A stretch of DNA of 64,000 bases from assembly GCF_028689785.1 (NCBI RefSeq), contig NZ_JAQVCN010000003.1:1-64000 (forward strand), in the 5' to 3' direction. The notes beneath the pieces were generated by a model that did not search any database, was not told where the DNA came from, and saw nothing but the letters and a program-made list of their open reading frames with translations. Position numbers and translations under genes: made by a program. Below are positions 35,450-38,574 of the stretch, one piece after another. Within the stretch, counting starts at the first letter, position 1, and the number at the start of each line of letters is the position of its first letter. The stretch comes from Zoogloea sp. (GTDB lineage: Bacteria; Pseudomonadota; Gammaproteobacteria; Burkholderiales; Rhodocyclaceae).

Positions 35450-36322
35450 TCAATACACCTTCGCCTCGCCCTCCGGCCGGGTCTTGAAGCGGCGGTGCAC
35501 CCAGTAGTACTGGGCCGGCATGGTGCGGACCAGGTCTTCGATGGCGGCGTTCATGCGATGCACGTCGGCCTCCACGTCGCCACTCGGGAAGTCCGTCCAT
35601 GGTTCGCTCAGGGTCACCACATAGCCCTGGCCGCCCGGGAGCATGCGGGTCACGCAGGTCACCACCACCGCGCCGCCCAGGCGGGTGAGGCGGGGCAGGG
35701 CGGAGAGGGTGGCGGCCTGCACGCCGAAGAAGGGCGAGAAGATGGAGTCTTCGATGCCATTGTCCATGTCCGGCAGGTAGTAGAAGGGCCGCATTTCCTT
35801 CATGGCCTTGATGGAGGCGCGCACGCTTTCGTCCCGGCGCAGCAGCACCTGGCTGCCAAAGCGGCTGCGCCCGTGAAACAGCCACTGGTCGATCACCGGG
35901 TCGCGCTGGCGGGCGTAGATGCTCACGCAGTCAAAGCTGGCGGCCAGCCGGGTGCCGCCCAGATCCAGGCCGAGGAAGTGAGGTGTCAGCATGATCACCG
36001 GCTGGCGTTGCGCGATCAGGCGGGCCAGGATTTCCTCGCCTTCCACGCGCACGATCCGGCGCACCCGCGCCTCCGGGGCAAACCAGGCCAGGCCGCGTTC
36101 GATCAGGCTGCGCCCGGCCAGGGCGAAGTGTTCCCTGGCCAGGGCTCGGCGTTGGGCTTCGGGCAGATCGGGAAAGCACAGGCGCAGGTTGGTGTGCACC
36201 ACCCGGCGGCGGGGCGCGATGATCCAGTACAGCAGCAGGCCGATGCTGCGGCCGATGGGGGCCTGGATGGACAGGGGCAGCCAGTGGAGCAGCCACAGCA
36301 GGGCAACGATGATTCGACTCAT
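35450..36322 (-). CDS. LpxL/HtrB-family lipid A acyltransferase (first)
   Basis: A 290-residue inner-membrane late acyltransferase that adds a secondary acyl chain to the lipid A precursor. The catalytic H-x4-D is at His115-Asp120 (TPHFLGLDLG), and an N-terminal hydrophobic anchor spans about 3-36. It lies 9 bp after the paralogue at 36332, so the two are co-transcribed. Which secondary position each acylates cannot be read from sequence. Could also be an ornithine- or glycolipid acyltransferase of the same fold. Confidence 0.85.
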   Translation of the reverse strand: MSRIIVALLWLLHWLPLSIQAPIGRSIGLLLYWIIAPRRRVVHTNLRLCFPDLPEAQRRALAREHFALAGRSLIERGLAWFAPEARVRRIVRVEGEEILARLIAQRQPVIMLTPHFLGLDLGGTRLAASFDCVSIYARQRDPVIDQWLFHGRSRFGSQVLLRRDESVRASIKAMKEMRPFYYLPDMDNGIEDSIFSPFFGVQAATLSALPRLTRLGGAVVVTCVTRMLPGGQGYVVTLSEPWTDFPSGDVEADVHRMNAAIEDLVRTMPAQYYWVHRRFKTRPEGEAKVY

Positions 36323-36331
36323 GAACGGGGA

Positions 36332-37192
36332 TTACCGGGTTGCAGGTGCGGGCGGTGCGCCGGATGGGCGCTTGTAGCGGTTGTAGCCCCACAGGTACTG
36401 GGCAGGATTCTCGCGGATCTGGGCCTCGAGTTCCCGGTTGATTGCGGTGGCCCGGGCGGAGGTGTCGCCGCCGAGGGGCGTCAGCGCCGGGCGCAGGTGC
36501 AGGTGAAAGCCCTTGCCGCCGGGCAGGCGCTCGGCCCAGGCGAAGAGGGTGGAGACACCGGCGACTTCCGACAGGCGCGCCGCCAGCGTCATGGTATAGG
36601 CCGGCCGGCCGAAGAAGGGCAGCCAGGCACCTTCACCGCCGCCGGGCACCTGGTCGGGCAGCATGCCCACCGCTTCACCGGCGCGCAGGGCCTTGATCAG
36701 GCGGCGCACGCCGCTCACGTCGGCGGGCGCCAGGTGCATGTTGCCGCGGCGACGGCCGGCATTGATCACCGGCTGCAGCACGGCTTTCTTGGGGGCCCGG
36801 TAGAGCACGGTGATCGGTTTGTGCATGGAAAAATACTGGGCCGAGATCTCGAAGCAGCCCAGGTGCGGGGTGATGAAGAGGATCCCGCCACCGCTGGCTT
36901 CGGCGGCCTCCACGTGCTCCCAGCCCGTCACCTGCACCACCTTGGCGGTGATCTCGGCCTGGGGGCGCAGCAGCACCCAGGGCAGCTCCAGGGCCTGCTT
37001 GCCGATCTCGCCGACGCAGCGCCGCCAGAGGCGCCCGGCCTCGTCGTGGCCGAGGGCCAGCTCAAGATTGGCGCGCAGGCGCCGTCGATAGGTGGGTGAC
37101 AGGGCGTAGGTGAGCCAGCCGGCGAGAACGCCCAGGGACTGGAGGAGTCCGAGGGGAAGACCGGCAAGAAACTTGAATATCAGGGACGCCAT
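36332..37192 (-). CDS. LpxL/LpxM-family lipid A acyltransferase (second)
   Basis: A 286-residue paralogue of the downstream acyltransferase with H-x4-E at His110-Glu115 (TPHLGCFEIS), an N-terminal membrane anchor (about 5-30) and the conserved DQVPGGGEGAWLPFFG loop. ATG 37192 was chosen because the anchor begins there; the open frame runs further upstream across the metK promoter. First gene of a two-gene operon, divergent from metK. Confidence 0.87.
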   Translation of the reverse strand: MASLIFKFLAGLPLGLLQSLGVLAGWLTYALSPTYRRRLRANLELALGHDEAGRLWRRCVGEIGKQALELPWVLLRPQAEITAKVVQVTGWEHVEAAEASGGGILFITPHLGCFEISAQYFSMHKPITVLYRAPKKAVLQPVINAGRRRGNMHLAPADVSGVRRLIKALRAGEAVGMLPDQVPGGGEGAWLPFFGRPAYTMTLAARLSEVAGVSTLFAWAERLPGGKGFHLHLRPALTPLGGDTSARATAINRELEAQIRENPAQYLWGYNRYKRPSGAPPAPATR

Positions 37193-37217: not shown

Positions 37218-37245
37218 TTGACGGCCGGGTGCGCAAAGTTATAAT
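37218..37245 (+). promoter_or_regulatory. metK promoter
   Basis: TTGACG (37218-37223), 16-bp spacer, perfect TATAAT (37240-37245). The start near 37252 would give a leader of about 155 nt before metK, unusually long for a housekeeping gene. Confidence 0.72.
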
Positions 37246-37332
37246 TGTGATTCCGCCGAGTTAATCCGACAACTTGCAGGGCGGGGGCACCGCGCAGCCA
37301 GGCTGCCAGGGCGCCCAAAAAATACTGCTAAA

Positions 37333-37395
37333 GCGTCGCCGCTCCGAAGATCCCCAGAGACGGCAACGCCGAACTACTGGGGATTTTTGCTTTTT
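37333..37395 (+). promoter_or_regulatory. structured metK leader: terminator-like hairpin or H-type pseudoknot
   Basis: ATCCCCAG (37350-37357) pairs perfectly with CTGGGGAT (37377-37384), which runs into TTTTGCTTTTT, as in an intrinsic terminator. A short hairpin CGGC-AAC-GCCG (37361-37371) fits inside it. A second stem, GCGTCGCCG (37333-37341) with CGGCAACGC (37361-37369), 8 of 9 pairs, is exclusive with that inner hairpin. It leaves ATCCCCAG in its loop, so both stems together make an H-type pseudoknot with loops of 8, 3 and 7 nt. The metK ribosome-binding site follows 12 nt later. This suggests control of metK by attenuation or a ligand-sensing RNA; I know no described class that it matches. 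Confidence 0.55.
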
Positions 37396-37407
37396 GAGGA
37401 GCGTTGC

Positions 37408-38574
37408 ATGGCCCGTGAATTCCTGTTTACTTCTGAGTCCGTCTCCGAAGGTCATCCGGACAAGGTCGCCGACCAGATTTCCGATGCGGTGCTCGACGCC
37501 ATCCTGGCCCAGGACCCCCGTGGCCGGGTGGCCTGCGAGACTCTGGTGTCCACCGGCTTGGTGGTCATCTCCGGCGAGATCACCACCCGCGCCGACATCA
37601 ACTACATGGATCTCGCCCGCGAGACCATCAAGCGCATCGGCTACGACGATTCCGACATCGGTTTCGACTACAAGAGCTGCGCGGTGCTCACCGCCATCAA
37701 CCGCCAGTCTTCCGACATCGCCCAGGGCGTGAACGAGGGCGAAGGCCTCGACCTGGACCAGGGTGCCGGCGACCAAGGCCTGATGTTCGGCTACGCCACC
37801 AACGAAACGCCGAGCCTGATGCCCTTCCCCATCTACTATGCCCACCGCATCATGCAGCGGCAGGCCGAGGTGCGGAAGGACGGCCGCCTGCCCTGGCTGC
37901 GCCCCGACGCCAAGAGTCAGCTCACCGTGAAGTACGTGGACGGCAAGCCGGTGGCCATCGACACCGTGGTGGTGTCCACCCAGCATCACCCGGACATCTC
38001 CCACGCCGACCTCACCGAGGCGGTGATCGAGGAAGTCATCAAGCCGGTGTTGCCGAAGGAACTCCTCGCCGCCAATACCCGCTTCCTGATCAATCCCACC
38101 GGCCGCTTCGTGATTGGTGGCCCGAATGGCGATTGTGGCCTCACCGGCCGCAAGATCATCGTCGACACCTACGGCGGCGCAGCCCACCACGGTGGCGGCG
38201 CCTTCTCGGGCAAGGATCCGTCCAAGGTGGATCGCTCTGCCGCCTACGCCGGCCGTTACGTGGCCAAGAACATCGTGGCTGCCGGCCTGGCCGACAAGTG
38301 CGAAGTGCAGGTGGCCTACGCCATCGGCGTGGCCCAGCCGGTGAGCCTGATGGTGGAAACCTTCGGCACGGGCAAGATCTCCGAAGACCGCATCGTCGAG
38401 CTGGTGCGCGCCCACTTCGACCTGCGCCCGAAGGGCATCATCGCGGCCCTCGACCTGCTGCGCCCGATCTACTCCCGCACCGCCGCCTACGGTCACTTTG
38501 GCCGTGACGAGGTGGATTTCACCTGGGAGAACACCGATAAGGCCGCCGCGCTGCGGGCCGACGCGGGTCTGTAA
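37408..38574 (+). CDS. metK: S-adenosylmethionine synthetase
   Basis: A 388-residue enzyme that makes SAM from methionine and ATP. Signatures are [12 protein letters not shown] at the start, [12 protein letters not shown] and [19 protein letters not shown], which hold the ATP, Mg2+ and K+ sites. Start ATG 37408 with GAGGAG 6 nt upstream; an earlier in-frame ATG at 37387 lies in the terminator hairpin region and is unlikely. The leader upstream looks regulatory. A strong hairpin terminator follows. Confidence 0.97.

Follow-up and report, generated by a model that had tools for sequence, protein, structure and literature searches.

A probable SAM-sensing riboswitch of the SAM-II/SAM-V superfamily in the metK leader of Zoogloea

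Results

A near-consensus promoter and a long leader precede metK

In the 64,000-nucleotide stretch of Zoogloea DNA that we analysed (hereafter the window), metK occupies positions 37408–38574 of the plus strand, starts with an ATG at 37408, and encodes a SAM synthetase of 388 aa (TIGR01034, 617 bits, cut-off 309). Among the matches listed, the closest named MetK proteins come from Zoogloea (99% for L134, 94% for L143). Upstream of metK, on the same strand as all features of the leader described below, lies a sigma-70-type promoter, TTGACG-16-TATAAT (37218–37245), which matches the consensus at 11 of 12 positions, against a shuffle mean of 0.0; TTGACG is kept in 20 of 21 leaders from the genus, the window's own included, and is TTGACT in the remaining one. 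Transcription is predicted to start at ~37252, which gives a leader of ~156 nt up to the metK ATG. The near-consensus promoter and the leader of about 155 nt reported in a preliminary description of this locus are thus both recovered. The leader is flanked by metK on one side and by a divergent lipid A acyltransferase gene (PF03279) on the other. Two adjoining genes of the latter family, divergent from metK, occupy window positions 35450–37192 on the minus strand, and the nearer of the two seems to begin only ~25 bp upstream of the metK promoter.

The leader contains a SAM-II-type core

A SAM-II-type core begins at the predicted transcription start and comprises, in order, helix P1, a third strand, helix P2, a hairpin P3 within loop L3, an A-tract, and the sequence GCUAAAG. 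The 5' strand of P1, CCGCC (37253–37257), pairs with the 3' strand, GGCGG (37280–37284), and both are supported by covariation. The third strand, GAGUUAA (37258–37264), is identified by alignment; U37261 and U37262 are the counterparts of the conserved triple-helix uridines of SAM-II and SAM-V, and G37260 stands where SAM-II and SAM-V usually have U. A possible further helix, P2a, would pair CGAC (37267–37270) with GUCG (37335–37338), the latter assigned by alignment and pairing. The segment 37274–37279 comprises the UU of the U:A.U triples, present in 100 of 100 aligned leaders, and the P2 5' strand GCAG, which pairs with 37325–37328. The P3 hairpin (37285–37316), inserted in L3 and hypervariable in sequence, is followed by the A-rich tract AAAAAAUA (37317–37324), which in the genus alignment takes the place of the L3 minor-groove strand, and then by the P2 3' strand CUGC together with UAAAG (37325–37333), in which U, A, A, and A are each present in 100 of 100 aligned leaders. 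By analogy with U47 and A48–A50 of SAM-V, U37329 and A37330–A37332 are candidate ligand-site positions.

The most conserved stretches of the genus leaders, 37244–37284 and 37325–37342, lie mostly upstream of the two stems on which the preliminary description had centred. Of two blocks, CTGCTAAAGCGTCGCCGC never varies and TGATTCCGCCGAGTTAATCCGACAACTTGCAGGGCGG does so only by a single T-to-A substitution, in one genome; between the two blocks, 40–66 nt of L3 vary freely except for the closing A-rich tract. Across relatives, L3 ranges from 10 to 66 nt in length. In 100 aligned leaders, eight pocket bases never vary: both U of the third strand, the UU in L1, and the U, A, A, and A that follow the P2 3' strand. 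A ninth pocket base, at 37260 in the third strand, is G in 98 of these leaders, and the other two have the usual U, a frequency obtained with a leader set drawn with a model and patterns favouring G. The two U-bearing rows (L121 and L139) are GGTTTAA cores misplaced by the alignment, and U stands at this position in four more metK leaders, three with GGTTTAA and one with GATTTAA, among 20 weaker model matches. G37260 as a strict metK signature was rejected on these grounds.

P1, P2, and P3 covary

The covariation alignment comprised 101 matches, 98 of them distinct, to a covariance model, R1, built from 21 genus leaders; one match was spurious (L184, minus strand) and was excluded from the pocket-base counts. 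In this alignment, 100% of cells in P1 and P2 are paired, with both-sided changes in three of five P1 pairs and one of four P2 pairs. Pair 5 of P1 is C-G in 86, U-A in 44, G-C in 3, and A-U in 1 of 134 cores. In the 134 standard-register cores, pair 3 of P2 is A-U in 105, G-C in 22, G-U in 3, and otherwise in 4, and pair 4 is G-C in 119, A-U in 10, and otherwise in 5; the P2 variants GCAG/CUGC, GCGG/CCGC, and GCGA/UCGC can be read directly. The covariation score, the number of paired cells, and the number of double-change cells exceed those of all 500 shuffles and of slid controls, and the number of pairs with both-sided change and the number of further pair types are ordinary (counts reached in 95 and 422 of 500 shuffles, respectively). 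These permutation tests ignore relatedness among sequences, and the leader sets were gathered with models and patterns derived from the element itself.

P3 shows both-sided changes in eight of nine pairs counted, with 79–82% of cells paired. When 12 L3 inserts were folded singly, each formed one or two hairpins, with z from −0.3 to −5.0 (−1.77 for the window); seven of the 12 were clearly stronger than shuffles (z −1.99 or lower). In P2a, 83.7% of cells are paired and changes are mostly one-sided (of four pairs, one is invariant, two change on one side only, and one changes on both), which points weakly to a helix.

A terminator and a candidate antiterminator lie downstream of the core

The sequence ATCCCCAG (37350–37357) is the perfect complement of CTGGGGAT (37377–37384), and the T-rich sequence TTTTGCTTTTT comes next; the 8-bp terminator stem with its tail, as described in the preliminary account, therefore stands. 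The full intrinsic terminator (37350–37395) consists of AUCCCCAG pairing with CUGGGGAU, a nested hairpin CGGC AAC GCCG, and then UUUUGCUUUUU. The 71-nt segment 37325–37395 folds at −28 kcal/mol (z −3.84), and none of 200 shuffles is equally stable. A simple terminator scan listed no terminator at the metK leader, presumably because the hairpin loop here, at 19 nt, exceeds the scan's loop limit of 8.

The second stem of the preliminary description, between 37333–37341 and 37361–37369, was likewise found with eight of nine pairs, the mismatch being C37337-A37365; the stem has an energy of −10.8 kcal/mol, and its 5' arm is a candidate antiterminator with 37361–37369. All 21 genus leaders (the window's included) have the CCCC/GGGG hairpin with a T-rich run and conserve the 5' arm of the second stem; the 3' arm, CGGCAACGC, is in place in 18 of 21, with one further copy within a P3 hairpin. 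Among 130 distinct metK leaders, 69 have a terminator-like hairpin and 61 have none detected by the same criterion, our own. The second stem shows no covariation: native complementarity in the 130 distinct leaders is 12.78, against 12.75 for permuted leaders. The tetranucleotide ACGC occurs in 86 of 130 middle regions, compared with 22.7 in plain shuffles, and GCGT opens 125 of 130 tails.

In the equilibrium fold of the window leader, the terminator has pair probability 1.0 and the antiterminator 0.0. Because the terminator is always favoured on energy alone, switching would have to be kinetic, occurring during transcription, and the second stem is at best a transient antiterminator. P2a and the second stem both use 37335–37338, so that competition between them is possible. 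We conclude that the two stems first proposed are real, but that a larger element includes them as its output part, at the downstream end.

The leader may mask the metK Shine-Dalgarno sequence

The strand CGCUCC (37340–37345) is complementary to the Shine-Dalgarno sequence GGAGCG (37398–37403), which complementarity and folding make a candidate partner for masking. In 130 distinct leaders, the native anti-Shine-Dalgarno pairing score is 15.8, versus 13.28 (sd 0.20) when upstream and downstream parts are reshuffled between species, and 0 of 2000 permutations match the native score; an earlier count with 102 leaders agrees (both 102 and 130 being the numbers left after removal of identical sequences). 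The exact register has a probability of 0.26 in the window's equilibrium fold, where most of the stretch pairs in a register that is shifted from it.

The core is associated with metK across the order

Within the genus, metK was found in 22 of 23 genomes, and every one of the 21 loci that extend as far as the metK start, among them the window's own, has the core before metK (of loci L001–L024, L020, L022, and L023 stop short of it). In the order, R1 matches 174 of 399 genomes at E up to 0.01. The core precedes metK at 38 of 50 model-match loci examined: at 27 of the best 30, and at 11 of 20 weaker loci, hand-picked from the matches listed rather than drawn at random, with four of the 11 metK placements read from coordinates. 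Of the other weaker loci, eight have the core before something else and one lies at a contig edge. R1 also matches 100 of 100 metK-leader loci chosen for having the core, a few of them from the genus used to build the model.

An exact pattern for the G-type core, which misses the window leader because the loop there is too long, matches 73 of 399 genomes of the order and three of 369 of the class; one of the three class matches belongs to the same order, and no metK was seen with the other two. All 30 order loci fetched from the 73 lie 55–115 nt before metK. A reverse-read control pattern gave no matches among the rows listed. In a scan of named genomes that did not require metK and yielded at least 119 loci, the core lies 52–96 nt before metK in 77 of the 119 matches listed; 35 have no acceptable core (some of them chance-like, for example in Bacillus and archaea), and seven have a core with no metK seen. 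Named carriers of the core before metK include Thauera, Azoarcus, Aromatoleum, Parazoarcus, Accumulibacter, Comamonas, Delftia, Ramlibacter, Sterolibacterium, and Hydrogenophilus.

Some G-type cores are not followed by metK, namely those at L073 (1512; HD-domain gene, Pfam), L240 (minus strand, 1540; AAA-type ATPase, Pfam), L230 (69; ATPase, by eye), and L241 (minus strand, 1580).

Rfam models score the element below threshold

In a search of the window with Rfam 15, only two tRNAs reach gathering score. The window leader is absent from the matches to SAM-II (RF00521; gathering threshold 36 bits) in a single-family search to E 0.1, and at 20 related metK-leader loci no SAM family exceeds its threshold at the leader, two SAH riboswitches being found elsewhere. 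The preliminary statement that the leader shows none of the SAM-II consensus is not supported: the SAM-II core is present upstream of the two stems, and three of 13 metK-leader elements with a short L3 match RF00521, at 20.4–20.9 bits, at the leader and on the right strand, with single-family E of 0.015–0.046 per genome. (The 13 elements come from 14 loci, L063 and L211 being the same place.) The other 10 are unlisted for RF00521 at E up to 3, and the other six of nine short-loop genomes searched give no RF00521 match at the leader at E up to 0.1. Some relatives, including ones located before metK, lack the P3 insert. RF00521 exceeds its cut-off of 36 in four of 21 genomes searched.

A SAM-II core with its own terminator-like hairpin lies before metX in the same genome (C7:13381–13460, L041) and scores 29.9 bits, below the same cut-off. 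When the metK leader is compared with this core, the parts follow in the same order. P1 comes first, then a third strand that contains two U and two A; a run with CUUGC at its end precedes the P1 3' strand, after which an A-rich tract leads to GCUAAAG. The metK leader departs from this core in having the P3 hairpin in L3, a longer L1, and G in place of U at 37260. Among 15 unique GATTTGA cores, nine precede metX, two precede metZ, and four precede something else; two reference proteins behind such cores are MetX and MetZ by NCBIfam. It was also observed that the RF00521 threshold loses many beta-proteobacterial members.

Other candidates were considered. The SAM-II long-loop family (RF01726), a SAM-II variant with the same core letters, differs from the metK leader in that its model places pairs within the loop of P1 and keeps L3 short; at a threshold of 44 bits it gives sub-threshold matches in relatives, none of the matches at E up to 10 falls on the window leader, and it was rejected as the family. 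The part of Weinberg et al. 2010 (PMC2864571) that covers it lists this family from Bacteroidetes and marine DNA. The SAM/SAH riboswitch (RF01727) and SAM-VI resemble the metK element in being small and in controlling a SAM synthetase gene (PMC2864571; PMC12190640), but have other folds and occur in other lineages, and the Rfam search found no match to either in the window leader. The only SAM-related listing for the window leader at E up to 10 is a partial match to the SAH riboswitch (RF01057) at the metK start, 14.1 bits over 31 of 78 positions, against a threshold of 37 bits. The sequence GAGGAGCGTTGCA there (window 37390–37420) is the same as the SAH riboswitch's best-conserved 5' block; most other genus leaders are without GAGGAGCGTTGCA, the candidate was rejected, and the likeness is probably chance. 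Several relatives (L063, L079, L058, L097, and L151) do have SAH riboswitches over gathering score at a distance of up to ~3 kb from the metK leader. Matches to Mir, Alpha_RBS, and IRES families in the Rfam search were rejected as chance.

Discussion

Comparison of leaders supports the aptamer core, P1, P2, P3, the anti-Shine-Dalgarno helix, and the association with metK. From these comparisons we consider it very probable that the metK leader acts as an OFF riboswitch that senses SAM and belongs to the SAM-II/SAM-V superfamily, in a variant that Rfam 15 does not recognise; within this reading, SAM as the ligand, the OFF direction, and the antiterminator step are what we infer. The suggestion of a SAM-responsive element of a class undescribed for this group survives in that the element is probably SAM-responsive, is conserved, and is not in Rfam here; it does not survive as to independence, since the core is of SAM-II type.

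According to the hypothesis of a SAM-sensing OFF switch, the aptamer would comprise 37253–37338, with P1, the third strand in the major groove of P2, P3 plugged into L3, the A-tract, and GCUAAAG. When SAM is plentiful, P2 and P2a would be stabilised and GUCG (37335–37338) would be held in P2a; the antiterminator-like pairing of 37333–37341 with 37361–37369 would be blocked, and the terminator hairpin would form behind the polymerase. In transcripts that read through, the Shine-Dalgarno sequence would be covered by 37340–37345. When SAM is low, 37333–37341 would pair transiently with 37361–37369 during transcription, and this pairing would delay both the terminator and the Shine-Dalgarno mask, so that metK would be made.

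The element shares with SAM-II (RF00521, SAM_alpha) an H-type pseudoknot of P1 and P2, two invariant third-strand U, UUGC before the P1 3' strand, GCUAAAG, an A-rich L3, and, often, a possible P2a helix and a terminator. It differs from SAM-II in that most of the members found have P3 in L3, and in that it has a longer L1 with ACAAC before UUGC, usually has G at 37260, serves metK, adds a Shine-Dalgarno mask, and scores below gathering score. With SAM-V it shares the P3 hairpin between the P1 3' strand and the A stretch. Parts of the SAM-V crystal-structure article (PMC6061858) describe the bases that match the invariant ones of our core as surrounding SAM, and describe a P3 hairpin after the P1 3' strand, followed by stacked A residues, in a riboswitch that acts on translation. 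Unlike the metK leader, SAM-V is found in marine alpha-proteobacteria and Bacteroidetes and is translational; it was not listed for the window leader in the search with all Rfam 15 families. The element would therefore work like SAM-II and SAM-V, yet we do not assign it to RF00521, because it falls below that family's threshold.

Other explanations can be weighed against a SAM-sensing switch. The ligand or selectivity of the same scaffold might have shifted, for example to SAH or another adenosyl compound, through G37260: G stands there in 98 of 100 R1-aligned metK leaders, versus U in 11 of 11 metX/metZ cores collected (GATTTGA), and the SAM-V counterpart, U8, bonds to U47, the reader of adenine, according to part of the structural report (PMC6061858). 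We regard such a shift as unlikely, since some metK leaders keep U (the five GGTTTAA and one GATTTAA cores described above), since the counterparts of the two SAM-V uridines that lie opposite the sulfonium and confer selectivity between SAM and SAH never vary here, and since the gene product makes SAM. Alternatively, the leader might bind no metabolite and be a plain attenuator or a post-transcriptional element to which a protein or an sRNA binds, since the terminator and the Shine-Dalgarno mask alone could serve any regulator. The lack of variation in the SAM-II pocket bases, together with the presence of a homologous element before metX and metZ, points instead to a ligand-binding RNA and makes this account very unlikely.

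The aptamer originally proposed, a new small pseudoknot formed by 37333–37341/37361–37369 and the terminator stem and independent of SAM-II, is extremely unlikely. Both of its stems exist, the loop lengths are permissive, and the arms of the second stem are kept in 21 (5') and 18 (3') of 21 genus leaders, but the second stem does not covary in the 130 leaders, the terminator is undetected in 61 of the 130, and the upstream core is both kept and covarying. The aptamer pseudoknot is likely P1/P2, upstream of both stems.

It is possible, and we suggest it only tentatively, that the element is a distinct subclass of the SAM-II/SAM-V superfamily, mostly for metK, with a SAM-V-like P3, usually a third-strand G, and a terminator and a Shine-Dalgarno mask that are both under the control of a single aptamer, and with related tandem cores before an M(F/Y)DC protein and a MATE transporter. 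If so, the subclass would merit a separate class name, as was the case for SAM-V. In the portions of Leyn et al. 2014 (PMC4239095) that concern these genes, beta-proteobacterial metK is under no known regulator, the authors' search for one having failed, and a metXZ RNA element of beta-proteobacteria, a pseudoknot with a terminator/antiterminator before metX or metZ, is described without a link to SAM-II. A widespread metK switch would fill this regulator gap for many members of a large order, including Zoogloea, Thauera, Azoarcus, Accumulibacter, Comamonas, Delftia, and others; it would also reveal a whole branch that the RF00521 model misses, and would form a natural bridge from the SAM-II to the SAM-V architecture. 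Cores before metX and metZ score as SAM-II, mostly below cut-off, and we infer from the textual description in part of that article that they are the metXZ element, which would thus probably be connected to SAM-II. Among the titles and abstracts of the literature matches listed, in a search whose scope mostly excludes subscription journals and which is not proof of absence, no such beta-proteobacterial metK element appeared.

SAM-II-like cores also precede a small M(F/Y)DC protein of 85–114 aa at seven loci: L065 (minus strand, 1608), L176 (minus strand, 3006), L242 (1611), L243 (minus strand, 1691), L246 (1685), L248 (1653), and L249 (1618). One full-length small protein of this type matched no Pfam or NCBIfam family, and a MATE transporter lies downstream at all seven loci by eye, with Pfam MatE in the two tested. 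The cores are in tandem at at least five of the seven, a GATTTGA-like core being followed by GAGTTAA or GATTTAA; for SAM-II, 44 tandem pairs are counted in part of a review of tandem riboswitches (PMC9481103).
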